From an uncultured Clostridia bacterium (GTDB lineage Bacteria > Bacillota > Clostridia > Christensenellales > Borkfalkiaceae): 52,527 nt of DNA. The notes beneath the pieces are model-generated. The model did no database searches, was not told where the DNA came from, and saw nothing but the letters and a program-made list of their open reading frames with translations. The translations under genes and the position numbers were made by a program. This document shows, in pieces, positions 7,773-28,586 of the stretch (positions are counted from its first letter, which is position 1; the number at the start of each line of letters is the position of its first letter). Location: assembly GCA_947625245.1 (NCBI GenBank), contig CANQNO010000010.1, positions 1-52,527 of the forward strand, given 5' to 3'.

Positions 7773-10253
7773 TTAAAATTTTATCTGAACGGCGCTGCCG
7801 TATTCGGATTTATGTTTCAACGCCACGACTTTTGCCGCGTCCGCTACGTTTGCGAGCGGCTTGCCCTTAGAGACGCGGCTCTCTATGGTGATATCCTCCG
7901 TATCGAATTCCGTAACCGTTTTATCGGAGGAAATTACGGCAAGCTTGTAGGGCACGGTGACGTAATCGGCAAAAATAAGTTCGCCCTTGCCCTTTATGTC
8001 GGCTATCATCACGCCCTTAGAGCCCCTGCCGTATTCGTCGAAGAGGGAAGAAATGACCCGCTTGAACCCGCCGAGGGAGGTGGCGACTATTATCTCGCCC
8101 TCGCTCCTGTGCTGTGTTGCGAAAATCACCTCGTCGCCGTCCGACAAAGAAATGCCGCGCACACCGCCCGCTACACGCCCCTGCGAGGGCACGTCGTCCT
8201 TAGAAGCGTTCAGGCACATTGCTTTTTTGGTAACGAACAGCATTGTGGCGTACTCGTCGGGGTCGTAATTTTCAACCGCCATAACCTCGTCGCCCGGCTT
8301 TAATTTGATTGCGGGGAACACCCGCTTAGACATGTCGTATTCCGACCAGGGCGTACGCTTTACCGCGCCCTGTTTTGTGAAGAACATGAGTTCCCCCTCT
8401 TCCGGCGCTCCCTTTACGGCAAAAACCGCCACGGGATATTCGCCCTTTAAAACGCCGTCGGCAATAGCTTCCGCCTTGACGCCGGCAGAGCGGTATTCGC
8501 AGGGTTCGGTTTCGTCGAGGAATATTTTTATGCAGTTGCCCAAATTCGTAAAGGCGTAAACTATGGAATCGGAACCGCAGTTCAAAGTCTTTTTATGCAG
8601 CTGCGAAAGGCTTGCCGAAGAGGAGAGTTTCTTTTTGGAACACTCGTCAAACTCCTCCTTTTCCATAAATTTCAAAGTGTTGGAAGCCGTGATCGCGACC
8701 GTCCACTCCGAAACCTGCCGCTTGACGTCGGCGCGCTTTACGGAAATTTTTTCCACGCTGTCCACTATGCGGGTCTTGCGCTCGTTTTTGTACTTGTCCT
8801 TTATTTCGAGCATCTCTTTTTTGACTATCGAAAATTGCATATCCCTGCTGTCGATAATCTTTTTGAGCTCTTCTATGCGCTTTTTAAGCTCCCTCAGCTC
8901 GTCCTCGAGCTTAGTGACTTCCAGCTTTGCGAGGCGGGCGAGCCGCAAATCGAGAATAGCCTGCGCCTGCTTTTCGGAAAGGGCGAAGCGCTCCATAAGC
9001 CTTGCGCGGGCGTGGGCGGTGTTTTCGGAAGTCTTGATTATTTTTACCACCTCGTCCACGTTGTGCACGCCTATTATCAGACCTTCGAGGATATGGCAGC
9101 GGGCTTCGGCTTCTTTCAGTTCGAACTTGCAACGCCTTAAAACGACCTGCTGCTGGTAGCGGGTGTAGTATTTTAAGATATCGAGAAGTCCCAGCTGCCG
9201 CGGCTTGCCGCCCGCAATCGCAACCATGTTTATGCCGAAGGTGCACTCCAGATCGGTGTACTTGAACAATATCTGTAAGACGCTGTCCACGTCGGCGTCC
9301 TTTTTTAGCGTTATCACGGCGCGCATGCCCGAACGGTCGGACTCGTCCACGATATCCGAAATCCCGTCGAGGAGAGCCTTCTTCTCCTCGCGCAACAACA
9401 TTATTTTGCGCAACAGCTCCGCCTTGTTCGTCTGGTACGGCAGTTCGGTTATTACTATCTGCTTTTTGCCGTAATCCCCCGCTTCCACCGAATATTTGGC
9501 GCGGAGAGTTATTTTGCCCTTGCCCGTCTCGTACGCCTGTTTAAGTTCGTTGGCGATTATATACCCGCCCGTGGAGAAGTCGGGACCGGGGATTATCTTC
9601 ATAATTTCGTTCAGCGTAATTTTGGGGTTGTCGATATACGCGCAACAGCCGTCTATAACTTCGGCGAGGTTGTGCGTGGGAATATTGGTGGCAAGCCCCA
9701 CGGCTATGCCGTTGGCGCCGTTGACGAGAAGGTTTGGAAACCTGCCGGGGAGGATATCCGGTTCGAGCAGCGAGTCGTCGAAGTTGAACGAAAAGGATAC
9801 CGTCTCCTTGTCCAGATCCTTTAAAAGTTCCAGCGCGAGGGGTTCGAGACGGGCTTCGGTGTACCTCATCGCGGCGGCGGGGTCGCCGTCCACCGAACCG
9901 AAGTTGCCGTGCCCGTTTACCAGAGTTTCGCGCATGTTGAAAGGCTGCGCCATCCTTACCATGGCGTCGTAAACGGAGCTGTCGCCGTGCGGGTGGTATT
10001 TGCCCATGCAGTCGCCCACTATTCTCGCCGACTTTTTATGCGGTTTGTCGGGGGTGAGCCCCATCTCCATCATTGTGTACAAAATACGCCTTTGGACGGG
10101 CTTTAAGCCGTCCTCGACGCGCGGCAGCGCCCTGTCGAGAATTACGAATTCGGCATAGGGCAGCATGGAGCCGGGCATTACCTGCTCTATGGGCTGTACG
10201 TATACGTTGCCCTGAGGAATAGAAGTCTGAAATCCGTTGCTCTTTTTAGCCAT
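7773..10253 (-). CDS. parC: type IIA topoisomerase subunit A, topoisomerase IV ParC-like
   Basis: 826 residues. The N-terminal breakage-reunion domain carries QRRILYTM, the quinolone-region [14 protein letters not shown], and the catalytic tyrosine Y131 in RYTEARL. A coiled-coil tower ([14 protein letters not shown]) and a six-blade C-terminal domain follow. I call it ParC because no QRRGGKG gyrase box is visible after the tower, although YGRGSKG occurs in a late blade; gyrase normally has the box at the start of this domain. With ParE it should decatenate chromosomes. Its ATG overlaps the parE stop, a sign of translational coupling. Confidence 0.9.
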
Positions 10254-12331
10254 CAGTCGTCCTCCCTCGCGCCGTTATTTACAAAATTGACCTTTTCGAT
10301 AAAGCCGTCCACCTTGTTGAAGTTGGCGTTTTCGGCAAGGAATTCTTTTCTGCCCTCCACCTTGTCGCCCATCAGCATTTCTATCACGCTCGCCGCTTCG
10401 GCGGCGTCCTCTATGGTGACCTGTATCAAATTGCGCGTGGCGGGGTTCATGGTGGTATCCCACAGCTGTTCGGCGGACATTTCGCCCAATCCCTTATACC
10501 GCTGCAAAGAATAGCCCTTGCCCACTTTTTTTATCTTTTCGTCCAGCTCCGCGTCGTCGTAGGCGTATTCGGTAACGTCCTTTTTGTACACCTTGTAAAG
10601 GGGCGGCATACCTATATACACGTATCCCGAATTAATGAGGTCGCGCATGTATTTGAAAAAGAAAGTCAACAGAATACAGCGTATGTGCATGCCGTCCTGG
10701 TCGGCATCGGAGAGGATTATTACCTTTTTGTATTTGGTCTTTTCCACGTCGAAGGAGCGGTTGAACCCCGCGCCTATCGCCGATATCATTGTCTTGATTT
10801 CTTCGTTTTGCAGGGCTTGCAGGGCGCTCTTTTTTTGCACGTTCAAGGGCTTGCCGCGCAGGGGCAGTATACTTTGGTAAGACCGCACCCTCGCCTGCTT
10901 AGCCGTGCCGCCCGCCGAATCGCCCTCTACTATGAACAGCTCGTTCAAATCGGGATTTTTCCCCGAACAGGACGCCAGCTTGCCCACGAGGTTAAGCCCG
11001 TCGTTTTCGCTTGCGGCTTTGGCGACGTCGCGCTCCGCACGGTGCTTTATCCTGTCGTCCGCGGCGAATTTGGCTTTTTTGGCTATCTCTTCGAAAACCG
11101 TCTTGTTGCCGCGCGCCGATTGAAGTTTGGAAAGCCCTTCGATGACCGCCTGCTCCACGGGCGCTTTTACTTCGGGGTTGCCGAGTTTGGTCTTTGTTTG
11201 CCCCTCGAACTCCACGTTGGCGAGCTTTACGTTTAAAACCGCCGTAAGCCCTTCCTTAATGTCGTCCGCAATGAACGGGGCGTCTTTCGCCTTTAAAAAG
11301 CCGTTTGCGCGGGCATAGTCGTTCACCGCCTTTAAAAGCCCCGAATGAAAGCCGTTTTCGTGATAGCCGCCCTCTACGGTGGAGATATTGTTCACGAACG
11401 AGAACATGCTTTCGGAGTCGTCTTTGGTGTGGCACAGGGCAAACTCTATTTTTATCTTGCCCGCGGGCGCGCCCTTTATCTGTATGTCCTTTATGTCGGA
11501 ATAGTACAGCGGCTCTTCGTACACGGGCGTTTTGCCGTCGTTGAGATATTTTACAAAGTCCACAAGCCCGCCGTCGTATTTATAGGAAACGGGCTCGCGC
11601 GGGGGCTGTTCGGTCTTTACGGTGACGGGGTTCCCTTCGGCGTCCTCCCCCTCTTCAAAGGAATAGGTGGGGCGCTCGTCTATAAAGTTTATCCTTACCC
11701 CTTTATTTAAAAACGCCAGCTCTTTAAGCCGCTTTGCAACCGTATCGTAATTCCACTCAGTAGTTTCAAACACTTCCCCGTCGGGCATAAACCGCACAAA
11801 AGTGCCGCGCTTGTCCGTCTTTTGCTTTGTGTCGCAAAGGGGCGCGGAAGGAATTCCGCACAGCCATTTCTTTTTGGTTTTGTCATAGGTGGATGTAAAG
11901 GACATTTTATAGATATTGCCGCGGTAAACTTCCACGTTGAGCCATTTTGAAAGGGCGTTGGTGACCGAAGCCCCCACGCCGTGAAGCCCGCCCGAAAAGG
12001 CGTAATTTTCGTTGTCGAATTTGCCGCCCGCGTGGAGTTTGGTAAATATAATTTCCACGCCGCTCATCTTTGCCTTGCTGTTGATATCGGTGGGCATGCC
12101 CCTGCCGTTATCCTCTACCGACGCCGAACCGTCCTTATACAAAGTTACGGTAATTTCGTCGGCGTAGCCGTTGGCGGCTTCGTCCACGGAGTTGTCCACT
12201 ATTTCCCACAGTATGTGGTGGAGTCCGTTCACGCCCGTAGAGCCTATATACATGCCCGGGCGCACACGCACCGCTTCCAGCCCTTCCAAAATTTTAAGGT
12301 CGTCCGCGTTGTAGTGCTGATTTTTTTCCAT
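10253..12331 (-). CDS. parE: type IIA topoisomerase subunit B, topoisomerase IV ParE-like
   Basis: 692 residues. A GHKL ATPase domain has [11 protein letters not shown] (ATP/Mg site around N47), EDNGRGMP (73-80) and [15 protein letters not shown]. The transducer domain is followed by the TOPRIM domain with [18 protein letters not shown] and DADQDG, and a C-terminal QRYKGLGEM. It powers strand passage by the parC product and is first in the operon parE-parC-mscS-pepF. Promoter at 12373-12401; AAAGGAA precedes the ATG. A true gyrB elsewhere in the genome is expected but not visible here. Confidence 0.9.
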
Positions 12332-16964: not shown

Positions 16965-17001
16965 GCAAAATGAAAAGCGGCGGCGGAAAATCCGCCGCCG
17001 C
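16965..17001 (-). terminator. terminator closing the capsid operon
   Basis: Perfect 11-bp GC-rich stem (16977-16987 with 16991-17001) with an AAA loop, followed on the minus strand by TTTTCATTTT. It marks the 3' boundary of the phage-derived operon. Confidence 0.75.
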
Positions 17002-17009
17002 CCGCCCGT

Positions 17010-17498
17010 TCAGCGGGCGTAGCTGTAAAGCACGTTGTAGAGTATTGTGTAGTATTCGCCGAGATAGCGCTTTGCGACTTCGTCCGCAGAGTACAGATTG
17101 AGCCGCTCCACGGGATCGTCTATAGCAAAATAGTAGGCGCGCACCACCGCGTAACGGTCGGCGTAGGACAGGGAATAGTCCACCGTGTACCCCACTTCCT
17201 CCCGGTCGTCCGATTCGTCGGGGAAAGGAGTGTTCAAATCGAGCGAATACATGAGCTGTTCCCTTAAAATTTCCGCCTGATAATCAAATTCCGCCTTTAA
17301 GCTGTCGCGCTTCTGCTCATAGAGCGAGGAGTTTTTCATGCCGTTAGTATACAGCATTCTCTTGAACATTTCCAGCTCGTTTTGCATTTTGTGTTCAAGC
17401 TCGTTTTTTCTCTTTTGCGCGCTCCTAAGAAGCTGCATCTGCACTTCGGAAAATTTTGCAAGTTCGTCGTCGGTGAATTCGGCTATGTCGAAAGTCAT
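17010..17498 (-). CDS. coiled-coil protein, last gene of the capsid operon
   Basis: 162 residues, not recognised. Residues about 10-90 are charged, heptad-like helix (ELEHKMQNELEMFKRML region). The C-terminal half is Tyr-rich and acidic (YTVDYSLSYADRYAVVRAYY). Its ATG overlaps the stop of the upstream gene (ATGA) and AGCGGAGGTGAG provides a strong ribosome site, so it is tightly tied to the cassette. In P22-like phages the gene after the hub (gp10) encodes gp26, a trimeric coiled-coil plug. This could be an analogue, but no sequence similarity is evident to me. Confidence 0.65.
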   Translation of the reverse strand: MTFDIAEFTDDELAKFSEVQMQLLRSAQKRKNELEHKMQNELEMFKRMLYTNGMKNSSLYEQKRDSLKAEFDYQAEILREQLMYSLDLNTPFPDESDDREEVGYTVDYSLSYADRYAVVRAYYFAIDDPVERLNLYSADEVAKRYLGEYYTILYNVLYSYAR

Positions 17499-18730
17499 TT
17501 TCTCACCTCCGCTTTGAGTTTAAGCGCCCGTATATCTCCCGTGCCCGAAACGCTCAGCGAAAATTTGCCGCCGCGTATGCCCAGCTTTTTGGACCCTTCG
17601 GTTTTAAACTTGCACGTACCGCTTCCGCTGCTAACCGTAACCGCCGTTTCGCCGTCGCAGTCTATAATTAGTTCGGTGAGAAGTTTGCGCTTTCTTACGC
17701 CGAAATCGAATTCGCCGAATTCCACTTCGTAACCGTCGTGCTTTGCAAACCTGTACGCCTGCAAATATGCGTCGATAATAAAATCATCGCCGTTTTCGTA
17801 CATGCACAGAGCGTCCGTTTCCAGCACGTACCCCGTTTGGAGAAGTACGTCGTAAACGTACACAACGTTATAGCCGAGTTTTTTAGAGAGGGCTTTCAGA
17901 AGGTAATACCTGCCGTACGCCGCACTGCCGAAAGAGAAGTTTGACGCGTCGCCGAAGAGCCCGCAATCCAGTTTTTCGGCTTTGCCGTTGCTAAAGCGCA
18001 AAACGTCGTCCCCGCAGCAGAAATACAGCCCGCCGCCCGCAACCGCCGCCGTGGCGGGCAAAATTTTTCCGGTCATTACAAGCTCGCGCGAGACGCGGAA
18101 ACTTTCGGGGGTGCCGCCCACCGAAAAGCAGGTAATGCCCCTCTCGCGCAAGGCGACGATTTCCCCGCCGAAATCGAATAGCCTTGTTATTTTTCCACCT
18201 GCGGGGTCCGCGTAATAATATCCGCTCCCCGCAATGCCTTTCTGCCAGTTGAGGATATCGTCCATGCCCGACCATCTGAGGATAAATCCCGTTTCGGAGT
18301 CGGCGGCAAACACCCTGCCGCAGCGCACAGCCGCGCAGGCGGAGGGCGGAAATCCCGAAGCAAAGCCGCAGGTGCCGTTGCGTAGAAGCACGGAAGTCTT
18401 GTCGCCGGCAAGCAGAAGATCGGTCCGCGCGCCCGCCTGCATTTCCACGAAGAACGGGGAAGACGCTTCGAGGGTGTTAAAACGCCTTAAACGGGTAATA
18501 TCCCCGTCCGTTATTCTGTACACGGTGCGGTCTTTGGTATAAGCCAGCCCGTCGCCCGACGGCAGTATGTGCGCGCAGACAAGGTTTTTGACGGGCGGCG
18601 CCGCCAGCGGTTCCAGCCCCATAGCCTGTTTTATGACCCCGTCTTTCAAAATGCCGTATCGCGGGAAAGCCTTTACCGACGCTATCAAATCCGCCTCGAC
18701 TTCACGGCTTTGGGGATAGGGAAATTTCAC
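17495..18730 (-). CDS. phage tail-hub / packaged-DNA stabilisation-like protein
   Basis: 411 residues from a GTG start. I place the start at 18730 because the GTG overlaps the upstream TAG (TAGTG) and AGGAGG lies 8 bases before it; the frame stays open further upstream inside the previous gene. The protein is rich in beta-strands with recurring Gly/Asp turns and Phe/Tyr-rich strands (LFDFGGEIVALRERGITCF), like a beta-propeller. Position directly after the adaptor and its length resemble P22 gp10, which stabilises packaged DNA. The assignment rests on order and fold impression, not on a signature motif. Confidence 0.6.
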   Translation of the reverse strand: MKFPYPQSREVEADLIASVKAFPRYGILKDGVIKQAMGLEPLAAPPVKNLVCAHILPSGDGLAYTKDRTVYRITDGDITRLRRFNTLEASSPFFVEMQAGARTDLLLAGDKTSVLLRNGTCGFASGFPPSACAAVRCGRVFAADSETGFILRWSGMDDILNWQKGIAGSGYYYADPAGGKITRLFDFGGEIVALRERGITCFSVGGTPESFRVSRELVMTGKILPATAAVAGGGLYFCCGDDVLRFSNGKAEKLDCGLFGDASNFSFGSAAYGRYYLLKALSKKLGYNVVYVYDVLLQTGYVLETDALCMYENGDDFIIDAYLQAYRFAKHDGYEVEFGEFDFGVRKRKLLTELIIDCDGETAVTVSSGSGTCKFKTEGSKKLGIRGGKFSLSVSGTGDIRALKLKAEVRK

Positions 18731-19287
18731 TACACCCACCTCCTCGGCGGTATGTACAGGGGCGGGCGGTATTCCTTTTTTGCCCTCTCTATAGCGGCGC
18801 GGTAGCGGGTTTCCCATATTTCCGCCATAGCCGCCTCGCCGCACATCAGGCAGTATTCCGCCGCGGCGCCCAAAGCCGTAACAGTGCCGTCGCCGAACAG
18901 CCCGAATTCGCTTTCGCCGTCTATGGTTTTGCGCGACGGCGCGTACATATAGGTTATTTCTATTTCGGGGTAATCCGCAGCAAGGAAATTGGCGTAAGTG
19001 CGGTACTCCGCTTCCTTTCCGCCGGCGGCCACGCCCAAAATTCTTACGGGCGTAAAGGCAAACGAGCTGTAAAAATATTTGCCCGTTCCGCTTTTTAAAA
19101 CTTCTTTATGGATAAGCGGGTGGTAATACCGTGCAAGTTCGGCTTCGGCGGCGTTTACGCAGAACAGCATCGTCTTTACCGTTTCGCCTCCCTCGCCTGC
19201 GGGTTCGCCGCCGTTTTCGACGTCGGCGGCAAGCTCCTCTCTTCCTATAAATCTCAACGCGCTCGCCAGAACGTCTCTTATCTTCAT
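18730..19287 (-). CDS. head-tail connector / adaptor (gp4-like)
   Basis: 185 residues. It begins MKIRDVLASALRFIGREELA, which looks like the helical start of phage connector proteins, and has a beta-rich middle and a helical end (AALGAAAEYCLMCGEAAMAEIWETRYRAA region). Its place after the capsid gene and before the hub-like gene matches P22 gp4, the ring under the portal. GAGGGG precedes the ATG, 8 bases after the capsid gene stop. No catalytic (muramidase) motif is visible. Confidence 0.65.
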   Translation of the reverse strand: MKIRDVLASALRFIGREELAADVENGGEPAGEGGETVKTMLFCVNAAEAELARYYHPLIHKEVLKSGTGKYFYSSFAFTPVRILGVAAGGKEAEYRTYANFLAADYPEIEITYMYAPSRKTIDGESEFGLFGDGTVTALGAAAEYCLMCGEAAMAEIWETRYRAAIERAKKEYRPPLYIPPRRWV

Positions 19288-19295
19288 TTATCCCC

Positions 19296-20450
19296 TCACA
19301 CGTTGCTCAGCACGGCTTGCGCGCAGGGCTTTTTGCAGATGAGTTCGGCATATTTAACGAGCGTTGCGCTGTACGCCGCCCTCTGCGGCACCTGTTTTAA
19401 AATTTTGCCGTCTTCATCCTCGAGCCACTCCCAATCGCAGAGTTGGCAAAGCGCGAAGTCGTCTGTATTTATAAAATACACCACGCCGTCGGGGCAGAAC
19501 CTGTCGGCATAAACGGGGATATTGTTCACCGTAACCACGCCCACGCCCGTATGCGCGTCTATGGAGTTGACTATCATCTTGTTGTCCTCTACAAGCGCGG
19601 CTATCTTCTTCCTCGTGGAATAGGAACAGAGTATCATGTTTATGCGGGAGTTGAAGTTCTCTTCCATATGGTCGACGATATCCGTAAGACTTCCGCTCGA
19701 AAGATCGGAGGGTTGGGAAAGCTTTACGGAATAGGGCGCGAAGAAAGGCTCCTCCTCCCTGTCGTAACCGTAGAGCTTGCCGCCGCCGAAAATCGCGCCG
19801 AGCCCCGTGAGCTCGTTGCCGTACGCGCCCGCTCTCGACACAATTGCGTTTTCCACGTCGCCCGTAACCGCCTTGTCGAGGGTTATCACGCCCGCATCCG
19901 TTTCGGTGACGGTCGCCCTTTCGAATTTAGTGCCTGCGGCGAGAATTACGTCCACGGTCATGCCCTTATAAACCGCCGCGGTGCTGTCGACGTTGAACTT
20001 TTTGTCGTCGGAGCTTGCCACCGCCGAAGTGATGGTGCACACCCTGCCCGTGCCGTCGCCGTACAACATCCTCTGGAAGTTGAATTTAGCGCCCGAAACA
20101 AGCCCTTCCATTTCGGCGTTTACAAGGTTTACGAACGCCCCCGAATCGTCGCGGGAAGCGCGCATGGCTTTGTCGCTCACCTCTATTGTGCCGTAAATGT
20201 TTTTGAGGGGTGAGGTGATTTTTATGTATCTGTTTTTATGGGGTGCGGGCAACGCCGCGTCCTCCGCGCACGCGCAAACGCTGTCCTCGCCGCCGCGCAC
20301 CACCGCAATGCTCACGTCCTTGCCGTACACGTTTTCGGCGGTCTTTTCTATCGCCGAGAAAAAGGGCGAAACGTTGTCGTTGAGCTGTGCCGTCAATGCT
20401 TTGAGATAATATTCCTTTAATGCTTTGTCCGCGTTTTCTATGGTAATCAA
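19296..20450 (-). CDS. phage major capsid protein
   Basis: 384 residues from a TTG start with AAAGGAG 7 bases upstream. The N-terminal helix is followed by a YGTIEVSDKAMRAS segment and a central AEMEGLVSGAKFNFQRMLYGDG helix, both typical of HK97-fold coat proteins. A beta-rich insertion and a C-terminal part with DIVDHMEENFNSRINMILCS and VYADRFCPDGVVYFIN then follow. No prohead protease is present next to it, which fits a P22-type, scaffold-dependent, uncleaved coat. A TTG start for the most abundant structural protein is unusual and may limit output. Confidence 0.8.
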   Translation of the reverse strand: MITIENADKALKEYYLKALTAQLNDNVSPFFSAIEKTAENVYGKDVSIAVVRGGEDSVCACAEDAALPAPHKNRYIKITSPLKNIYGTIEVSDKAMRASRDDSGAFVNLVNAEMEGLVSGAKFNFQRMLYGDGTGRVCTITSAVASSDDKKFNVDSTAAVYKGMTVDVILAAGTKFERATVTETDAGVITLDKAVTGDVENAIVSRAGAYGNELTGLGAIFGGGKLYGYDREEEPFFAPYSVKLSQPSDLSSGSLTDIVDHMEENFNSRINMILCSYSTRKKIAALVEDNKMIVNSIDAHTGVGVVTVNNIPVYADRFCPDGVVYFINTDDFALCQLCDWEWLEDEDGKILKQVPQRAAYSATLVKYAELICKKPCAQAVLSNV

Positions 20451-20468
20451 TTTTTTTCTCCTTTAAAT

Positions 20469-20936
20469 TTAAAATTTTAAAAATTGTTTTGCGAGCGCGC
20501 CCGCCTCTTTCACCGATTTCGGCGCGTTCTTAGGCGCCGCGCAGGGCGCGCCGCCGACGAGCAGGGGAACGCTTTTTAACCCGGATATCTTTTTAAGATA
20601 TTCCCCGACCACCGCGTTTTTCACGTCTTCGTCACGGAGCACGGCGTTTAAAAGCTCCTCCCCTTCGGGAATTTTGGGAGAGGGCGCCTCTTCCGCCTTG
20701 CTCTCCAACTCTTTGAGTTTCTGGCTGCGCCGGGTGAACTCCGCTTCCAGATTGAGGTATGCCGCCAATAGGGCCTCTGCGCTTTTGAATTTACCGTATG
20801 CGGGCGCGGTGTTCTCGTTTTTTTCTTCCGCTTCCGCGGTATCCGCCGCAATTACGGTTCCGTCGCGCGGGTTATCCGCTTCGGCGCTTTGCGCCGCGGT
20901 ATTTGTATTAATTTCCTTCTCTGTTTTCTCTGTCAT
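20469..20936 (-). CDS. capsid scaffolding-like protein
   Basis: 155 residues, acidic and helical. A disordered Thr/Glu/Ala-rich N-terminus (1-45) precedes a KFKSAEALLAAYLNLEAEF helix followed by RRSQKLKELE, a pattern seen in scaffolding proteins of Clostridia phages. The C-terminus is basic and helical (KEAGALAKQFLKF), as expected for coat binding. It overlaps the portal gene by 29 bases in another frame, with GGGAG before the ATG, and lies immediately upstream of the coat gene, the normal scaffold position. Confidence 0.75.
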   Translation of the reverse strand: MTEKTEKEINTNTAAQSAEADNPRDGTVIAADTAEAEEKNENTAPAYGKFKSAEALLAAYLNLEAEFTRRSQKLKELESKAEEAPSPKIPEGEELLNAVLRDEDVKNAVVGEYLKKISGLKSVPLLVGGAPCAAPKNAPKSVKEAGALAKQFLKF

Positions 20937-22551
20937 ATTCTCCCTCCCCGTTGGGAATAGCGTCGGTTAACGAAGCGTATCCCAGCAAATCGAGTATTTT
21001 CTTTTTAGCCGCCTGCGTCATCTTTCCCTCACCGTCCGAAAACAGCCCCCTGTCCATCAGTTCGTAAATCACCGTCCTGCGCTGTGCGGGCGAAAGGTTT
21101 AAATCGGTATCGGCTTCGAGCACCACGTCGTCGCCCGAAACGTCGCTCCCCTTAAAGCAGAGCGCCTTTGTTTTGCCGTCGCCGTCGACAAGTTGCACCA
21201 GCCGCACGTCGGTGGAAAACTGCCTGTAAAGCCGCAATACCAGCCTGCCGATTTTTCTCACGGCGCGCTTTATGCTCTGGTATGCCACGTTCAGGCGCGC
21301 GTCGTCCTGGTCTATTATAAGTTGCAGCCCCGTCGCCGAAGTTATCCCCGCAAAGGCGTCGGCGTTGTCGGAAATTTCCGTCGTGCCCGATATTTTGGTG
21401 AATTCGGACAAAAGGCTCTGTTCTTCCTTCCAGAACTCTTCGGGCACACTGCCCAACGCCAGCATTTCGGGCGCGGAGCCGCCCTGCCTGTACACTATTA
21501 TCTTGCCCGGCGCAAGCCCCGTTTCGGCAAGCTCGTCCACATCCACCGAACCCTCTTCCACCGCCACCGTGCCCATGGAAATGCGGTTCAAAAATTCGTG
21601 TTTGCGGTTTTTAACGGCGTTGTACGCGCGCTGTACGGGGATAAGCCTTTCCACCACGCTCCAACCGAAAAACGAACCGGGCGCGGACGTGGAGACCTGC
21701 TTGACGAAGGGATACCCGCGCGTGCCGTTGTCGCCGTTCAAATAGGGCAGTGGTCCGTCGTAAAGGAGCGTTCCGCCCGCGGCGACCGTCAGCCGCCCGT
21801 CGGGCAGATCCCCCGAAGGGCGCTCGTACCTTTCGAGAACGAGTTCGAAATTTACCCCCGTATCGCCTTTCGCGCCGCAGCCGGGGATATCGAAGAGGGA
21901 AGCTTCCTTTCCCTCGAGCCTTACGCCGTACACCGAAAATATTTCTTTTACCGGCAGTAATTCGGCGTGGATAATGCTGGGCTGCATGTCGAGGTTTTCC
22001 TCGTCGAGGGAAAAGGGATAAATTTCAAAGGGCGAAACCGCCGCTATGTTTACCCCGCCTTCCGCAATGCTTTTGCCGTCCTCCGTGACCCCGACCCGCT
22101 TGCCCGAAGCCGAATTCCACACAACCTTGTAAAACGCCGTGCCGCAGATCTCCGACCACATCGTGGCAGAGGAGATCACCCCGTCGAGATCGGCGTCGTC
22201 CTGCACGAAAGAGAGTATTGCCGAAGCTATTTCGGAGGCGTTTTTGTCGTTTTCCCCGTCCGACGCCGCCCTCACCGCGAGCGCGGGGCGTATACGCGCA
22301 AGTTTTGAGAGCCTTGTGTCGATTATCGGGGCTATGTGGTTGAAAACCCGCCTCTGCTCCCAATCGTAATTCGGTTCCGAAAACACTATTTCGCCGCCGT
22401 CCGTAATTCGGCAATACTGTTCGCCGCGGGCGAAGTTTAAATTCAGCTCCCACTGCCGTTCCAGACTTTTTCGCTGCCTGCGGCGGGTTTCGAAATCCTC
22501 GCCGACTTCGCGGGCAAGCTGTTCTTCGTCCGTTATTTGCAATTCTTCCAT
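20908..22551 (-). CDS. phage portal protein (P22-like)
   Basis: 547 residues. It forms the dodecameric DNA gate at one capsid vertex. Recognisable regions: an N-terminal helical wing (DFETRRRQRKSLERQWELNL), VFNHIAPIIDTRLSKLARIR, a stem with SFFGWSVVERLIPVQRAYNA, and a long C-terminal helix with TSATGLQLIIDQDDARLNVA. Length and order match P22-type portals. The ATG shares one base with the stop of the small-terminase-like gene (TAATG) and GGAG precedes it, so the two are translationally coupled. Confidence 0.85.
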   Translation of the reverse strand: MEELQITDEEQLAREVGEDFETRRRQRKSLERQWELNLNFARGEQYCRITDGGEIVFSEPNYDWEQRRVFNHIAPIIDTRLSKLARIRPALAVRAASDGENDKNASEIASAILSFVQDDADLDGVISSATMWSEICGTAFYKVVWNSASGKRVGVTEDGKSIAEGGVNIAAVSPFEIYPFSLDEENLDMQPSIIHAELLPVKEIFSVYGVRLEGKEASLFDIPGCGAKGDTGVNFELVLERYERPSGDLPDGRLTVAAGGTLLYDGPLPYLNGDNGTRGYPFVKQVSTSAPGSFFGWSVVERLIPVQRAYNAVKNRKHEFLNRISMGTVAVEEGSVDVDELAETGLAPGKIIVYRQGGSAPEMLALGSVPEEFWKEEQSLLSEFTKISGTTEISDNADAFAGITSATGLQLIIDQDDARLNVAYQSIKRAVRKIGRLVLRLYRQFSTDVRLVQLVDGDGKTKALCFKGSDVSGDDVVLEADTDLNLSPAQRRTVIYELMDRGLFSDGEGKMTQAAKKKILDLLGYASLTDAIPNGEGEYDRENREGN

Positions 22552-22796
22552 TAATTCTCCTTTAACATGTTCAATAGTTTTTGTCTTTCTTCTTCCAGTT
22601 CTTCGTCCGAAAGTTCTTCCCTGCCGTCCATCAGCATCTTCACCGCCTTGATATCGGGCGGGATCTCCCTTTTGGTGATTTTCTTTTTCACGAGTTTAAG
22701 CTCTCCGTTTTCGACGGCGAATTCTTCCACCGTCTCGCTTGCCGAAAGCCCCGTGGCGCACTTTATGAGCGCGTTTTTAACCTTTTCGTCGGAAAT
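22551..22796 (-). CDS. small-terminase C-terminal-like protein with an ATT start
   Basis: An 81-residue frame lying exactly between the terminase and portal genes. It begins SDEKVKNALIKCATGLSASE and contains TKREIPPDIKAVKMLMDG. This resembles the end of small-terminase subunits (an ALxxRAxG helix, an acidic hairpin, then VPPDxxA and a helix), without the N-terminal HTH DNA-binding domain. No ATG, GTG or TTG fits, but AAAGGAGGTG ends six bases ahead of an ATT (22796-22794), an ideal spacing, so a rare ATT start is likely. The stop overlaps the portal ATG. In most phages the small subunit lies before, not after, the large one. Confidence 0.65.
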   Translation of the reverse strand: MSDEKVKNALIKCATGLSASETVEEFAVENGELKLVKKKITKREIPPDIKAVKMLMDGREELSDEELEEERQKLLNMLKEN

Positions 22797-22808
22797 GGAA
22801 CACCTCCT

Positions 22809-24248
22809 TTAATCGCTCGCCGGTCTGCGCTTCAATCTGTTGATCCTCTTCAGCTTGTCTTTGCCCACTTCCGAAAGCCCGGCGGTCCTTTCGGGCGGGC
22901 GGGGGCGGGTCATTAAGTAGTACCTCAATTCGTCCATACAGTGGTCGTCGCGCTTTACGGGCAAATCGTTCTCTCCCCAAAAATACCCCTTAAACTCCTC
23001 TATCATGTTCGTGCATGTGGAAAAGATATAAAGGTTCCCCTCCCCGTTATCCCTGTTCAAAAAGGACTTTACCCTCGAAATGCCCGCAAATACGTCCTTG
23101 TCGACGTTCGTGTTCACCATGATGCCCCGCTCGTAAAAGAGTTCCGCGACCGACTTTGCCGAAGAGAGCGTCCTCTGGTTGGCGGCGCTGTCGATGAACG
23201 CCCGCACCCGCCCGTTTTTATCGGATTTCCAGCCGAGCTTGCGGCTTATGGAAAGGATAGCCCGTGAGTGGAAATCTATGTCCTTGCCGCTTGCAAAGTG
23301 TTCCGCCACTACATATACGTTCCCGTCCCAGTCCACGCAGTACCAATGCGCCGAAAGCGGGTTGTTCAGCCCCGGGTCTATGGAAATCGCGTCCTGCCAC
23401 TCCGCGGGGATTTTAAAGGGCTTTATAACGTGCACGGCTTCGTCGAATTCGGGATATACAAGCCCCTGCCCTTCGGAAAACTTGCCGTAACGGCGGGAAT
23501 CGAGCGACGACGCGTCCAGCGAATTTTCCAAAAGCTTTATTTCCTTTTTGGAAAGATAAGGGTTGTCCTCCCAGGTCATAAACTCGTGCCATATTTCGGG
23601 ATTTTTGCGCACGTTCATATAAATTTCGTTGTAGATAAACGTCTTGCCTTTCAAGGGCGTCATCGTGCCGAAAATATCCCCCTGCCTGTCCATGACCCGC
23701 ATAAGACACTCCTCGTATATGTCGCGGGGCGGCTCCTCGTCGAACCACACGAAATCGAGGCTCGACCCCTGAAACTTTTCCCGCCCCTGGTCGCAACTTT
23801 TAAACCCCAGCGTAGAAATTCCGCCGAAAACGTTTTTTATTTTTATCTGGTCTATCACTCCCCCGCCCGGGCTGTCCCTGCGCCCCGACAGCATAACTAT
23901 GTCGGCTATCCAGCTTTTGGGAAGATAATGCAAAATTTTTGCCTGCGCAACGTCTCTTTGCACCTGTTGCGAAAGTGAAACGCACCACCCGAACACATTT
24001 TTTTTGTTCTTGCGGTAAGGGTGTATGCCGCGGAGCGCCCATATGCACTCCACCGCGCCGCACTCCGTCTTGCCCGAACGGTTTCCGCCGAAAACCCACC
24101 TGTTGCGCTTTTTGCACCTGTGGAACGCCATCTGCTTTTTATGCTTCTTTTTGCCCGTATTGTACCCCGAAAGATAATCGTTGCCTTTCCGCCTTTTCTG
24201 CTCAGCCTCTATCTCCGCAATCCGCTTTAAAATCTCTTCCTTTTGCAT
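22809..24248 (-). CDS. phage terminase large subunit (DNA-packaging motor)
   Basis: 479 residues, full length. The ATPase domain has Walker A GGNRSGKTE (54-62), Walker B FVWFDE (D170, E171) and a C-motif-like GTMTPLKG. The RNase H-fold nuclease domain has three acidic residues in good context: D291 (SIDPG), D353 (FIDSAAN) and D439 (CMDELRYY). All catalytic residues are therefore present and the motor looks functional. It is first in the capsid operon. A GAGGAG lies about 18 bases before the ATG, too far to be a good ribosome site, so initiation may be weak. No strong promoter is visible in the 60-base gap to the divergent gene. Confidence 0.9.
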   Translation of the reverse strand: MQKEEILKRIAEIEAEQKRRKGNDYLSGYNTGKKKHKKQMAFHRCKKRNRWVFGGNRSGKTECGAVECIWALRGIHPYRKNKKNVFGWCVSLSQQVQRDVAQAKILHYLPKSWIADIVMLSGRRDSPGGGVIDQIKIKNVFGGISTLGFKSCDQGREKFQGSSLDFVWFDEEPPRDIYEECLMRVMDRQGDIFGTMTPLKGKTFIYNEIYMNVRKNPEIWHEFMTWEDNPYLSKKEIKLLENSLDASSLDSRRYGKFSEGQGLVYPEFDEAVHVIKPFKIPAEWQDAISIDPGLNNPLSAHWYCVDWDGNVYVVAEHFASGKDIDFHSRAILSISRKLGWKSDKNGRVRAFIDSAANQRTLSSAKSVAELFYERGIMVNTNVDKDVFAGISRVKSFLNRDNGEGNLYIFSTCTNMIEEFKGYFWGENDLPVKRDDHCMDELRYYLMTRPRPPERTAGLSEVGKDKLKRINRLKRRPASD

Positions 24249-24296
24249 ACGACTTTTTCAGACAAAACTCCTCAATTATTTCGCCGTGTTAAAGTA

Positions 24297-24302
24297 TATA
24301 AT
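24297..24302 (+). promoter_or_regulatory. -10 box before the 24311 gene, leaderless layout
   Basis: TATAAT ends 8 bases before the ATG at 24311. No good -35 is seen and no Shine-Dalgarno is present. On the minus strand the same bases contain TATACT (24298-24293), a possible weak -10 for the terminase gene. Confidence 0.4.
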
Positions 24303-24310
24303 CGGCGTGT

Positions 24311-24982
24311 ATGAAAGTATTAAAGTGCCTTTGCTGCCTTGCGCTGTCGGTTACGGTCTGCACTTTTCCCGCCGCACAAACGGCTTCGGCTTCGGACGGG
24401 CGGCAATACGCCCGCGCCGATACCCGCAACGTCTATTTTTGCGCGGATACGGACGACGGTTCGGCGCGTTTTGCGGTGCCCTATACCTATTGCGTGGAAA
24501 TACTCGCCGACAAGGGCGATTGGTATCTCGTCCGGTATGCCGAGGACGACGGGTTTTATATATCCCAAACTGGCTATTGCCGAAAAGACGGGCTTACCCT
24601 TCTGGACGACACTCCCCAAAACCCCTACCTGAGCTATCCCGTGACGACAACCCTGCGCGCAAACGTGCCCGACGACGGCTCTCTCCCGGGGCTGGAAATC
24701 ACGGTGGAAGCGGCATATTACGGGGTCTATTACAAGGGCGCGGCGGCTTACTCCTGCGTTTTGTACGACGAAAAATTCTGGTACGTGCCCGGCGCGAACG
24801 ACGGCTACCCGCTAAACGAAATCCCCGCCCAACCCGCCTTTTCGCCCACCGAACCGCAGGACGGCGGCGGTAACGCAAGGCTTATAACCGCGGTGCTCAT
24901 CGTCGCCGTCGCCGCAACCGTCGTAGCCGTTCTCCTCATCACGGGCAGGCAGGCGTCGAAAGGCAGGCGGGAAAAGCTATAA
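24311..24982 (+). CDS. secreted, C-terminally anchored SH3-like protein
   Basis: 223 residues. A signal peptide (about 1-27, ending ASA) is followed by an SH3-like beta domain (TRNVYFCADTDDGSARF, then KGDWYLVRYAEDDGFY). A second small beta region carries LRANVPDDGSLPGLEITVEA, and a membrane helix (about 188-211) precedes a basic tail. No catalytic motif is visible. The layout parallels the larger 25550 protein, so both may be sensors or scaffolds at the cell surface. It is divergent from the capsid operon and converges on the 129-residue gene, overlapping it by 6 bases. Confidence 0.75.
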   Translation: MKVLKCLCCLALSVTVCTFPAAQTASASDGRQYARADTRNVYFCADTDDGSARFAVPYTYCVEILADKGDWYLVRYAEDDGFYISQTGYCRKDGLTLLDDTPQNPYLSYPVTTTLRANVPDDGSLPGLEITVEAAYYGVYYKGAAAYSCVLYDEKFWYVPGANDGYPLNEIPAQPAFSPTEPQDGGGNARLITAVLIVAVAATVVAVLLITGRQASKGRREKL

Positions 24983-25366
24983 AAGACAGTAAAACCTGTT
25001 TATCAACGCCTCTTCCGCCGCAAACCTTCCGCAAAATCTCGCCCTCCGCAAAAACTTTATAAGCGCCCTCTTTATGCACTTCACGGTTCCGGGCGGCAGC
25101 CCCATGATCCCCGTCCTAAGCCTTGCATAAAATTGCAGCGCGCCGGCGTCCGCGGCGGGCAGACTTTTAATCACCCCGTCCAGATACCCCCAAAAACCCG
25201 ACAGCGCGTCCTTCGCCTCAATAATTTTTAAAATCTTTCCGGCATAATACTCTCCCCCGCCCTCCGCTCCCGCGGAAAGACACGCATATCGCATTATAAG
25301 ATTGTTTAACGCCCTGTCCAACGCCTCCGCGTTGAAGTAAAAGCGCAAAACTCGTTTGCTTTTCAT
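24977..25366 (-). CDS. small basic helical protein, unknown
   Basis: 129 residues, mostly helical and basic. A RFYFNAEALDRALNNLIMRYAC start, a GFWGYLDGVIKSLP middle and a C-terminal KRALIKFLRRARF helix are visible. The alternation of helices with a basic end could be a DNA-binding (sigma-like or ArpU-like) fold, but no motif proves it. It is in the same orientation as the capsid operon and upstream of it, separated by an opposite-strand gene, so a regulatory link is possible but unproven. Confidence 0.6.
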   Translation of the reverse strand: MKSKRVLRFYFNAEALDRALNNLIMRYACLSAGAEGGGEYYAGKILKIIEAKDALSGFWGYLDGVIKSLPAADAGALQFYARLRTGIMGLPPGTVKCIKRALIKFLRRARFCGRFAAEEALINRFYCLL

Positions 25367-25549: not shown

Positions 25550-26926
25550 ATGATGAAAAAGTTTTGTGTTTTTGCTATTCTCTTATGTATGTCGGCGGCG
25601 GCGTTTTCGCCCGCTGCGGCTTTTGCCGCGGAAGTTACGGGCGGCTATCCCGACCTTTTGAGGGAAAAGCTTACCTTTGATAATTTAAAAGATTATGCCG
25701 TAAATTCGGACGGGAGCGTGCTGTTCGCCGACGGCAATAAGCTTATTTTGTGGACGCAGGACGAAAAGACCCTGCCTTTTAACGCCAAAGGCGAAGTAAC
25801 CGACGTGGATTGTTCGGACGGCAATTATTTTTACGCCACGGCGGAAGGGGCATACGTTCTCCCCTCCTCGCCCGAAAATCTTCCGGGCGAAAAGACAAAC
25901 CACGACTTTACCAAATCGATAAAAAGAGATTTCCCCGTGCGCGACGGGTTCAGGTACTATTTCGGCGGCAACGATAACGACGACACCTTCGACGGTTCAA
26001 ACGTATTCCATGTCGTAAAAACTTCCGACAGTACCGACCAATCTTTCCCCGATTACATAAAAGTAAAGCCTTACGGCGATAAAATTTACGCCGTAAAGGA
26101 CAATGTGCTATACGAGATTACCGACGGACAAGCCCAACCCGAAGAATATTATTATTCCAACTACAATCTTTTGACGCAGGTTCCCGTGCAGAACGCCGCC
26201 GAAACGCTAAGGCTGTTTTCGGAGAGTCCCCAAAAGGTGATAATACAGCAGGGCAGCCGCGTTACGGAGCTTAACCCCGATAAAATAGCGGACGGGGATT
26301 ATTTTTACGCGGGCGACGAGCTGAGCGCGCGCAATAAAACCCATGAGGACGTTTCGGGATCCGCACTGTTGCTTGCAGAAACGGACGGAACGAAGGTCGT
26401 TTCGCAGGGTTCTAAAATTTATATGCTCGGGAAAGACGACGCCGTAGCAAGCGGCGGGCTGAACGTTCAGCAAATGAACGCCACGGCAAACCCCAACTGC
26501 AATGAATATGCGTACGCCCTCCCCTTTGTTTCGCGCTCCACCTCTGTGTTCGGGATAACCCCGCAGGACAGCCTTACGGTAGTCGGCGCGGTTTTAAAGG
26601 AAAACGATTCCTGCCTCGCCCATGATTTTTACATAGTGGAAAAAGACGGGGTGCGCGGATATGTGCCCAAAGAATTTTTAAACGATTTGGCTTATCCAAA
26701 CTTCAACGAGGGCAGCGCGGGGTTGACCGCCGACCCCTCGCCCGAAAACGGCAACAACGTTAGAACGGTCGTGCTGGTTCTGCTTGTAATTTTGTTGCTG
26801 CTGGTTGCGGCGGGGTATCTCACCTATCTTTTCACAAGCGGGAAAAAGTCGGCAAAAGCGCGCAAATCCGGCACTGCGGACGGAGATTACGGCGATGGAA
26901 AAATCAATACGGACGACATGCTTTAA
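25550..26926 (+). CDS. secreted membrane-anchored beta-rich protein, unknown
   Basis: 458 residues. A signal peptide (about 1-27, ending AFAAE) is followed by a long extracellular part with repeated short strands (VLFADGNKLILWT; GDKIYAVKDNVLYEI; GSKIYMLGKDD), which reads like a beta-propeller. A small SH3-like module with KDGVRGYVPKEFL precedes a membrane helix (about 407-430) and a charged tail ending KINTDDML. Not assigned to a named family. The promoter predicts transcription from the start codon; the second ATG (25553) fits a leaderless start best. No Shine-Dalgarno. It is followed by a hairpin terminator and then the tRNA operon. Confidence 0.8.
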   Translation: MMKKFCVFAILLCMSAAAFSPAAAFAAEVTGGYPDLLREKLTFDNLKDYAVNSDGSVLFADGNKLILWTQDEKTLPFNAKGEVTDVDCSDGNYFYATAEGAYVLPSSPENLPGEKTNHDFTKSIKRDFPVRDGFRYYFGGNDNDDTFDGSNVFHVVKTSDSTDQSFPDYIKVKPYGDKIYAVKDNVLYEITDGQAQPEEYYYSNYNLLTQVPVQNAAETLRLFSESPQKVIIQQGSRVTELNPDKIADGDYFYAGDELSARNKTHEDVSGSALLLAETDGTKVVSQGSKIYMLGKDDAVASGGLNVQQMNATANPNCNEYAYALPFVSRSTSVFGITPQDSLTVVGAVLKENDSCLAHDFYIVEKDGVRGYVPKEFLNDLAYPNFNEGSAGLTADPSPENGNNVRTVVLVLLVILLLLVAAGYLTYLFTSGKKSAKARKSGTADGDYGDGKINTDDML

Positions 26927-27133: not shown

Positions 27134-27207
27134 GCGGGTGTAGTTCAATGGTAGAACACTAGCCTTCCAAGCTGGTTGCGTGGGTCCGATTCCCATCACC
27201 CGCTCCA
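27134..27207 (+). tRNA. tRNA-Gly (TCC)
   Basis: 74 bases with CCA encoded. Acceptor GCGGGTG pairs with CACCCGC, anticodon stem CTAGC/GCTGG, anticodon TCC at 27166-27168. Confidence 0.95.
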
Positions 27208-27244
27208 ACCTTAAAGGCTGAATTCTCGAACGATAAAGTAATAT

Positions 27245-27321
27245 GCGCCTGTAGCTCAGCAGGATAGAGCAACGGCCTTCTAAGCCGTGTGTCGGGGGTT
27301 CGAGTCTCTCCAGGCGCGCCA
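27245..27321 (+). tRNA. tRNA-Arg (TCT)
   Basis: 77 bases with CCA encoded. Acceptor GCGCCTG/CAGGCGC, anticodon loop CTTCTAA gives TCT. Confidence 0.95.
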
Positions 27322-27328
27322 GAAGTAC

Positions 27329-27405
27329 GGCGGGCGTAGCTCAATCGGTAGAGCGCCAGATTGTGGCTCTGGAGGCAGCAAGTTCGAAACTTGTCGCCCG
27401 CCCCA
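27329..27405 (+). tRNA. tRNA-His (GTG)
   Basis: Acceptor GCGGGCG/CGCCCGC with an extra G (27329) facing the C discriminator, the identity element of histidine tRNA. Anticodon GTG; CCA encoded. Confidence 0.95.
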
Positions 27406-27434
27406 CTTTTACTCCGCCATCATGGCGGAATCGA

Positions 27435-27509
27435 TGGGGTATCGCCAAGCGGTAAGGCACGGGATTTTGATTCCCGCATTCGTTGGTTCGAATCCAGCTA
27501 CCCCAGCCA
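27435..27509 (+). tRNA. tRNA-Gln (TTG)
   Basis: 75 bases with CCA encoded. TGGGGTA/TACCCCA acceptor and GCCAAGCGGTAAGGC D arm typical of glutamine tRNA; anticodon TTG. Confidence 0.95.
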
Positions 27510-27515
27510 TTATAA

Positions 27516-27591
27516 GGCCCATTAGCTCAGTTGGCAGAGCACTTGACTTTTAATCAAGGTGTCCCGGGTTCGAGTCTCGGATGGACCACCA
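27516..27591 (+). tRNA. tRNA-Lys (TTT), acceptor mismatch
   Basis: 76 bases with CCA encoded and anticodon TTT. The acceptor arms GGCCCAT and ATGGACC leave a C-A mismatch at the third pair (C27518 against A27585), where T would be expected. The rest of the cloverleaf is regular. Confidence 0.92.
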
Positions 27592-27597
27592 CAATAT

Positions 27598-27673
27598 GCA
27601 CCTTTAGCTCAGTTGGTAGAGCAAATGACTCTTAATCATTGGGCCCAGGGTTCGAGTCCCTGAAGGTGCACCA
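27598..27673 (+). tRNA. tRNA-Lys (CTT)
   Basis: 76 bases with CCA encoded. GCACCTT/AAGGTGC acceptor, anticodon loop CTCTTAA gives CTT. Last gene of the cluster. Confidence 0.95.
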
Positions 27674-27682
27674 AAAGAGTAT

Positions 27683-27735
27683 AATCCGAATTGTTTACTT
27701 GTTACGAGTGAGTGGTTCGGATTTACTTTTTATTT
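27683..27735 (+). terminator. terminator of the tRNA operon
   Basis: AATCCGAA (27683-27690) pairs with TTCGGATT (27716-27723), followed by TACTTTTTATTTT. Confidence 0.75.
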
Positions 27736-27782
27736 TGAGTAATTGTGACGCTATAATTATTAAATAAAGGAGCAGAAATACA

Positions 27783-28586
27783 ATGGCAAATGAAATGTAT
27801 GTGAAAGACACGAAAATCAATGTTATCCAAATCGGCGAGCAGGATTATATCTGTATTACCGATATGCTTAAAGCAAAAGACGGCGATTTTTTTATCACCG
27901 ATTGGCTTCGCAACAGAAACACGCTCGAATATCTCGGTATATGGGAATCTATCTACAACCCGAATTTTAATTATGGCGAATTCGCCGCAATTAAAAGTAA
28001 AGCAGGACTCAACAGTTTTAAAATCAGCGTCAAAGAATTTGTAGCAAGAACAAATGCAATAGGAATTCAAGCGAAAGCGGGACGTTACGGCGGTACATAC
28101 GCTCATAAGGATATTGCCTTTGAGTTCGGGATGTGGATAAGCCCCGAATTCAAGATTTATCTCGTCAAAGAATTTCAACGTCTTAAAGACGAAGAGCAGA
28201 AACAACTCGGTTGGTCGGCAAAGCGGGAACTCGCAAGAATAAACTATCGTATTCACACGGACGCAATCAAGGAGAACCTCATCCCTCCCGAACTTACTCC
28301 GTCGCAAATCAGCGTTGTCTATGCCAGCGAGGCGGATGTTTTAAATGTCGCGCTGTTTGGCATGACTGCCGCACAATGGAGAGCAGACAATCACGATAAA
28401 AGTGGAAATATCCGCGATTACGCAACCATCAACGAACTGATATGTTTGTCGAATATGGAAAATATCAACGCTGTTTTGATAGCCGACGGCATCCCGCAAT
28501 CCGAAAGGTTGAAAAAGTTGAACCAAATAGCCATATCGCAAATGAAAGTTCTTAATGAAAACGACAACAGGAAATTTTTGAAATGA
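27783..28586 (+). CDS. KilA-N domain protein
   Basis: 267 residues. The KilA-N DNA-binding domain fills about residues 1-130 and is recognisable from GRYGGTYAHKDIAFEFGMWI followed by SPEFKIYLVKEFQRLK. The C-terminal half is helical, of the type seen in phage antirepressors and defence-island proteins. AAAGGAG precedes the ATG. AT-richer codon use than neighbours, location directly behind a tRNA operon and the recombinase stub after it all indicate a mobile-element origin. It could still be expressed; no toxin or nuclease motif is visible. Confidence 0.9.
   Translation: MANEMYVKDTKINVIQIGEQDYICITDMLKAKDGDFFITDWLRNRNTLEYLGIWESIYNPNFNYGEFAAIKSKAGLNSFKISVKEFVARTNAIGIQAKAGRYGGTYAHKDIAFEFGMWISPEFKIYLVKEFQRLKDEEQKQLGWSAKRELARINYRIHTDAIKENLIPPELTPSQISVVYASEADVLNVALFGMTAAQWRADNHDKSGNIRDYATINELICLSNMENINAVLIADGIPQSERLKKLNQIAISQMKVLNENDNRKFLK

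Follow-up and report, generated by a model that had tools for sequence, protein, structure and literature searches.

A mostly vertically inherited cluster of podovirus-like particle genes in gut and rumen Clostridia: a candidate gene transfer agent

RESULTS

A block of phage-like particle genes among host genes

The DNA analyzed here, referred to as the window, is a stretch of 52,527 nucleotides and makes up an entire contig (C10, 52.5 kb) of a draft genome of 1.42 Mb, 94% complete, from an uncultured Clostridia bacterium. Positions 17010-24248 carry, on the minus strand, a block of eight close-packed genes resembling the head, packaging, and tail genes of a phage. All eight frames are open in the source genome, and from 24248 down to 17010 the order is large terminase (TerL), small open reading frame (ORF), portal, scaffold, coat, adaptor, nozzle, and coiled-coil protein. 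A preliminary description of this DNA had reported eight intact, coupled genes in this order, followed by a terminator and host RNA-modification genes. Both statements were confirmed: no frame is broken, and the hairpin and T-run behind the last gene are followed by genes for a methyltransferase (PF10672, 1.2e-12) and a pseudouridine synthase (2.6e-26). The eight genes stood as described, but the conserved unit proved wider than the block, since it also takes in the genes at 24977-25366 and 24311-24982. The features are as follows, with E values for library and structure matches.

22809-24248, minus strand: TerL, ATPase and nuclease (PF03237, 1.9e-13; phrog_2, 6.8e-31; nuclease half against 5oe8, 1.4e-10; invariant positions)
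22551-22796, minus strand: small ORF with an ATT start, read from the sequence and kept after TerL or before the portal
20908-22551, minus strand: portal (P22_portal, 5e-16; phrog_156, 2.1e-34)
20469-20936, minus strand: scaffold, from position and conservation between portal and coat
19296-20450, minus strand: major coat protein with a TTG start (phrog_14242, 1.5e-44)
18730-19287, minus strand: head-tail adaptor, from a fold like that of podoviral adaptors
17495-18730, minus strand: tail nozzle, from its predicted fold (the "hub" of the preliminary description), with a GTG start overlapping the adaptor stop
17010-17498, minus strand: coiled-coil protein, its start overlapping the nozzle stop (relatives match DUF7934)
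about 16965-17007, minus strand: terminator-like GC-rich hairpin and T-run after the last stop, read by eye and carrying no program score
24977-25366, minus strand: u129, probable late-gene activator and first gene of the conserved unit (upstream profile match)
24311-24982, plus strand: SH3-like protein, secreted and membrane anchored, divergent from TerL (SH3_3 in relatives)
25550-26926, plus strand: o458, secreted and anchored protein of uncertain membership, frequently the next gene upstream in family loci (upstream profile matches)

The guanine-plus-cytosine (GC) content of the block, 0.505 to 0.586 per kb, is at or above that of its neighbors and differs, as had been claimed, from the 0.42 to 0.45 of the KilA-N region at 27-30 kb. 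Library scans recognized no integrase, replication, tailspike, or lysis gene within the block. The three matches to the tyrosine recombinase family PF00589 in the genome all lie on other contigs, a search that did not extend to serine recombinases. The claim that integrase is missing stands for this contig as regards tyrosine recombinases, while the claim that lysis genes are missing does not extend to relatives, where holins lie beside the block in two family-level groups (f2 and f6; see below).

The particle proteins include short-tail folds

In an alignment of 13 rows from five families, the TerL positions in what we take to be the named motor and nuclease motifs were invariant, in agreement with the earlier statement that the motor keeps all its catalytic residues. 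The small ORF is absent from the program-made ORF list because ATT is not among its start codons; this apparent start sits behind AAAGGAGGTG, a strong ribosome-binding site, and several relatives have ATG at the same place. Its product might, as a guess, be the small terminase subunit.

The window's own copies of the scaffold, adaptor, nozzle, and coiled-coil proteins gave no library match. The nozzle model (predicted local distance difference test score, 87.9) matches the folds of P22 gp10, Sf6 gp8, Pa223, and T7 gp12, and structure comparison showed that the adaptor folds like podoviral adaptors. The particle had been called tail-less; these two predicted folds indicate instead that it carries a short tail. 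Among relatives of the coiled-coil protein, 9 of 21 match DUF7934 (best, 3.9e-30), and its place after the nozzle would suit a needle or fiber, again as a guess. The proposed P22-type coat was not supported: searches return phrog_14242, and SU10_MCP was reached below the cut-off only. A tandem pair of coat genes, both matching the coat profile, was seen in an f2/g21 genome (L098:8026-10379); the second of them reaches SU10_MCP at 9.2e-5, under the cut-off.

A linked upstream gene probably encodes a late-gene activator

Gene order was read in 22 loci of the window's family, 20 of which span the block; the profiles were built partly from these loci, so that matches arise partly by construction. 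All 20 carry u129 and the divergent SH3-like gene together with TerL, small ORF, portal, scaffold, coat, adaptor, and nozzle; the last gene was found in 17. Single-sequence searches of the family loci miss some adaptors, nozzles, and last genes, and in GC-rich loci, where the simple gene caller picked antisense frames, gene order was taken from profile matches. Most family loci, though not all, have an o458 profile match upstream. Behind the block, 7/7 loci of genus g1 have the methyltransferase and pseudouridine synthase genes, and small ORF, portal, and divergent gene are each found in 43 of 44 TerL loci from the same genus (the window is included in both counts). Outside the family, the divergent gene is present at the f7 locus, where the activator profile matches only weakly; at the f6 locus the divergent gene is itself a weak match and the activator has none.

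The window's copy of u129 has itself no library match, being too diverged. Of 24 relatives, 12 match phrog_36 regulators (best, 6.2e-12), 10 match phrog_248, 4 match antitermination Q-like proteins, and 4 match DUF1492, which suggests that u129 is probably a late-gene activator of phage type. SH3_3 was found in three of six relatives of the SH3-like protein (best, 2.4e-6; window copy, 0.056). Between the divergent genes (24249-24310), 43 same-genus loci have in common a TTTTGTC-N7-GTC element directly ahead of the start of TerL and, on the side of the divergent gene, an ATTATA box; the former is a possible operator of the u129 activator.

The cluster is widespread in the order and mostly vertically inherited

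TerL was found in 84/93 same-genus genomes (57/61 good ones) and the coat in 83/93 (55/61 good ones), two of the 83 being fragments of 42 to 43 residues. Near full-length TerL matches in the genus, the query's own apart, are 72 to 85% identical. Uninterrupted TerL of near full length (at least 443 of 479 residues) is present in 73 of the 84 genomes; three have one in-frame stop, and eight are partial, several of them at contig ends. One TerL, in G018, appears genuinely broken and pseudogene-like. As a control, the HK97-type portal PF04860, a mark of many ordinary prophages, occurs in 8/93 same-genus genomes (3/61 good ones), so that the patchy presence of a prophage or satellite trait, seen for this portal, was not seen for TerL.

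Across the family, TerL is present in 287/301 genomes and 17/18 genera. A scan of the order (genomes at least 85% complete; TerL E value at most 1e-100) found it in 246/396 genomes, 71/138 genera, and 17 family-level groups. In the class, 22/392 genomes had TerL, of which five lie outside the order: the phage-like G365 (f31) and four genomes of f45/g73. A scan of named genomes returned at least 571 related stretches, 80 of which were kept as loci for detail; none of these 80 bears the name Faecalibacterium, which excludes nothing.

To follow descent, a portal tree of 41 rows was built (L125 left out; midpoint root). Each of the seven family genera represented by at least two rows formed a single clade, and the order's copies grouped with support 98, excluding 7/9 viral contigs and f45. 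Two rows were odd: L268, 38% filled, falls inside f2, and L270 lies on a long branch far outside. A tree of TerL, portal, and coat had 16 of 23 splits in common with a host topoisomerase-B tree, compared with 3 in the best of 1,000 shuffles. This comparison covers 26 of 30 genomes (G133, G098, G234, and G442 were dropped, the fetched match being possibly or actually a paralogue), with coat lacking for one genome, three host rows of only 214 to 231 residues, and a host tree made from one gene that is linked to the block in several genomes. A topoisomerase subunit B gene lies in the window at 10253-12331; two paralogues are present in most of the genomes searched, and in some g1, g10, and g14 genomes the one seen here lies no more than about 12 kb from the block. 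The cluster is thus inherited mostly vertically and codiverges with its hosts.

Selection was estimated as the ratio of nonsynonymous to synonymous substitution rates (dN/dS) between the window and its nearest full locus, G067, a pair in which all values are rough because dS is about 0.9 to 2.6. The particle genes gave 0.080 for terL, 0.085 for the small ORF, 0.128 for the portal, 0.153 for the coat, 0.175 for the coiled-coil protein, 0.224 for the adaptor, and 0.493 for the nozzle; the scaffold was dropped, with only 25 codons. The linked genes gave 0.160 (SH3-like) and 0.187 (u129), and the host genes gave 0.127 (rlmI), 0.129 (rluD), and 0.051 (gyrB-like). The terminase, portal, and coat are under purifying selection; the dN/dS check proposed in the preliminary description came out, for terminase and coat in this closest pair, far below 1.

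The gene set is dispersed in two other lineages

In f2/g19, TerL, u129, and the SH3-like gene stay together, and the rest of the set is at another site. TerL and portal are 40 to 105 kb apart on one contig in six genomes and on different contigs in one, which together make up seven of eight. The four portal loci read in this genus run portal, scaffold, coat, adaptor, nozzle, and two holins; in the one locus tested, the holins match BhlA (3.4e-16) and Phage_holin_1 (2.5e-6). The f6 locus has both holins too (2.3e-10 and 1.9e-4). Holins inside the same vertically inherited operon fit a gene transfer agent (GTA).

The set is more scattered in f45/g73, which belongs to another order: in 3/3 genomes, TerL, portal, and coat lie on three contigs amid host genes. 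In three genomes, the contig with the coat carries scaffold, coat, an adaptor-sized gene named from its position only, and a nozzle relative (profile match, E value of 4.3e-7, probability 93%; no library match), set between serC-like and leuB-like or other host genes. The g73 portal stands directly behind the spoIIIA operon in three genomes (L121-L123; matches to SpoIIIAC/AD, AE, and AH). One g73 genome also has, at G486:C18:35477-41247, a TerL match of partial length and, in addition to the coat on C20, another coat that is more distantly related; the C18 stretch is perhaps a related phage in a host that carries the dispersed set.

Among the 80 named loci, the portal is adjacent to TerL in 43, 2.7 to 8.6 kb away in 8 (L134, L137, L140, L146, L154, L183, L194, and L199), and not found within at least 8 kb downstream in 15; in 14 the DNA was too short. 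Loci with the 2.7- to 8.6-kb gap suggest stages of break-up. Host-like genes lie between TerL and portal in L137 and L154.

Some database entries filed as viruses are probably bacterial loci

GenBank phage TerLs are 22.6 to 30.3% identical among the matches listed. Closer relatives were found in IMG/VR: contigs L248, L252, L254, and L255 have TerLs 49 to 52% identical and the order TerL-portal-coat-nozzle as in the cluster, and no u129, SH3-like gene, or small ORF was recognized on them. By size and neighbors, these four look like phage relatives. Another 41 IMG/VR loci (L207-L247; TerL 56 to 74% identical), 36 of them on contigs under 16 kb, keep the gene order of the cluster, and several have u129 and the SH3-like gene; they are probably bacterial loci of the cluster filed as viruses. 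These entries serve as a warning that virus databases hold such clusters as viruses.

Other features of the window

An array of six transfer RNA genes, followed by a KilA-N protein, lies within a low-GC stretch at 27134-28586. A full-length LigD, with ligase, phosphoesterase, and primase-polymerase domains, is encoded at 31152-33620; that it could bear on incoming linear DNA is speculation.

DISCUSSION

The block is likely to be the core of a GTA that descends from a short-tailed phage and that the host lineage has retained. This reading draws on several observations: the genes present and their unbroken frames, vertical inheritance, purifying selection, a gene set that is dispersed in two lineages, and folds of short-tail type. 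The cluster is a GTA candidate and not a proven GTA. In its available text, PMC9662315 defines GTAs by six features, among them a gene set of their own that is too much to be packaged whole, the packaging of mostly random host DNA, and its delivery to other cells. Three of the six were found here: structural proteins derived from caudoviricetes, genes that are fully endogenized, often at several loci (amid host genes in the window and at several loci in f2/g19 and f45/g73), and mostly vertical inheritance with codivergence.

For expression, packaged content, release, delivery, and the role of the activator, we propose the following working. The linked activator would turn the operon on in some cells, and coat and scaffold would assemble a small head on the portal. 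TerL would load this head with whatever chromosomal DNA it encountered, after which adaptor and nozzle would seal the head and make a short tail. Lysis might proceed through operon-encoded holins in some families and by some other route in the window's lineage, and released particles would then hand DNA to kin.

Several points weigh against a GTA. Neither particles nor packaged DNA nor transfer have been observed in this lineage. No receptor-binding protein was recognized, and no lysis gene was found for the window's family: the BhlA holin profile gave one weak match (E value of 0.002) in 17 genomes and none in the window's genome, other lysis and tail genes not having been searched genome-wide. 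The nozzle evolves fast (dN/dS, 0.49), and when seven loci were compared in all pairs, their synonymous sites being nearly saturated, median ratios of nonsynonymous to synonymous differences per site (pN/pS) were 0.26 for terL, 0.44 for portal, 0.53 for coat, and 0.88 for nozzle, with host genes at 0.23 to 0.33. The genomes compared are drafts. The expectation that relatives would share the block held for most of the genus, but 9/93 genomes are without TerL, and in a few more the block is reduced to fragments; G344 (f2/g19) is without TerL, portal, and coat, and 150/396 genomes of the order have no TerL at 1e-100. The cluster can thus be lost, or some families never had it. Finally, the f45 portal rows fall outside both the viral contigs and the order (support 90, midpoint root), and f45 may therefore be a separate taming.

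Conservation and purifying selection would fit any useful particle, and a vertically kept particle with another job is the subject of one rival explanation. Such a particle, filled with DNA or handling it, might act against competitors or invading phages, much as PBSX-like killing particles or capsid-interfering satellites do, its packaging not serving gene transfer. A fast nozzle would suit a target-facing part, the lack of a recognized receptor-binding protein is in keeping with this view, and the available text of PMC12946183 discusses PBSX as an alternative for the GTA of Faecalibacterium. Killing particles, however, need no intact motor, and the whole set from motor to nozzle is kept in all 20 spanning family loci; we regard another job as improbable.

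The preliminary description had suggested a domesticated particle and offered three guesses: a GTA, a secreted capsid-like device, and the structural half of a satellite. Domestication is strongly supported, and a GTA fits best of the three. A DNA-free secreted device is disfavored because the motor and nuclease positions of TerL are invariant. Capsid-forming phage satellites bring a head and packaging module into the bacterial chromosome and are mobile. The window does hold head and packaging genes with no integrase or replication genes, as a satellite dependent on a helper phage would; yet the block is near-universal and vertical in the family, has its own adaptor and nozzle, and elsewhere has its genes at distant loci. 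Its vertical inheritance, and the separate loci that its genes occupy in two lineages, make a satellite very unlikely. Finding intact pieces at separate sites is at odds with a mobile phage or satellite, and since TerL and portal in f2/g19 and f45/g73 either lie 40 to 105 kb apart or are on different contigs, no small head can hold both. Only a single locus is known in the window's family, and its 7.2-kb block might fit in a head. A recent or decaying prophage remnant would account for the phage-derived genes, the losses and fragments in some genomes, and the pseudogene-like TerL of G018, but near full-length, uninterrupted TerL in 73 of 84 genomes, purifying selection, and the rarity of an ordinary prophage portal (8/93) leave it with hardly any probability.

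The nearest known system is the GTA of Faecalibacterium (FpGTA), to which the cluster is likened by description and not by sequence. The available text of PMC12946183 presents FpGTA as a podovirus-like GTA candidate of gut Clostridia, reported in January 2026 as the first of its kind and from one genus, at a time when recognized GTAs are few. Its operon I encodes a possible small terminase subunit, TerL, portal, scaffold, coat, and phage-like proteins, a second operon holds more structural genes and lysis genes, and the system was present in 12/12 Faecalibacterium genomes examined (PMC12946183). FpGTA has particles of about 40 nm, about 9 kb of DNA, and proteomics behind it, whereas our cluster is known as genes only and spans an order. 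RcGTA and other recognized GTAs, as the available part of PMC9662315 describes them, resemble the cluster in vertical inheritance, caudoviricete-derived proteins, and several loci; RcGTA differs in its 49-nm tail and alphaproteobacterial hosts, where our cluster, in Clostridia, has a nozzle and adaptor of podoviral type. Short-tailed phages such as P22, Sf6, and T7 are like the cluster in portal family and in the folds and order of adaptor and nozzle, and unlike it in that no integrase, replication, tailspike, or lysis gene was recognized in the block and that its coat is unmatched to the P22 coat. From capsid-forming satellites the block differs in being vertically inherited and, in some lineages, dispersed. 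A literature search that left preprints and most subscription papers outside its range found no earlier report of the cluster.

On balance, we lean toward the view that a podovirus was tamed as a GTA in, or close to, the ancestor of a large order of Clostridia from the gut and rumen, probably the GTDB order Christensenellales, in which the available part of PMC8035907 places many families, Borkfalkiaceae included. The cluster would still be present in at least 17 family-level groups, its genes having drifted apart in some lineages, and the more scattered set of g73, in another order, may reflect the same or a separate taming. A vertically inherited, order-wide candidate would make podovirus taming in Clostridia older and wider. 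It also supplies genes to test against the GTA-like packaging reported for Christensenellaceae (HGM11616 and QANA01; 3 of 25 events), genomes that are not among the four listed as operon-searched in the available text of PMC12946183. If the GTA reading is true, the cluster could be the missing source of the GTA-like packaging seen in Christensenellaceae in gut viromes, and particle-borne gene exchange would be a trait passed down within a group of gut bacteria that is both very common and uncultured.

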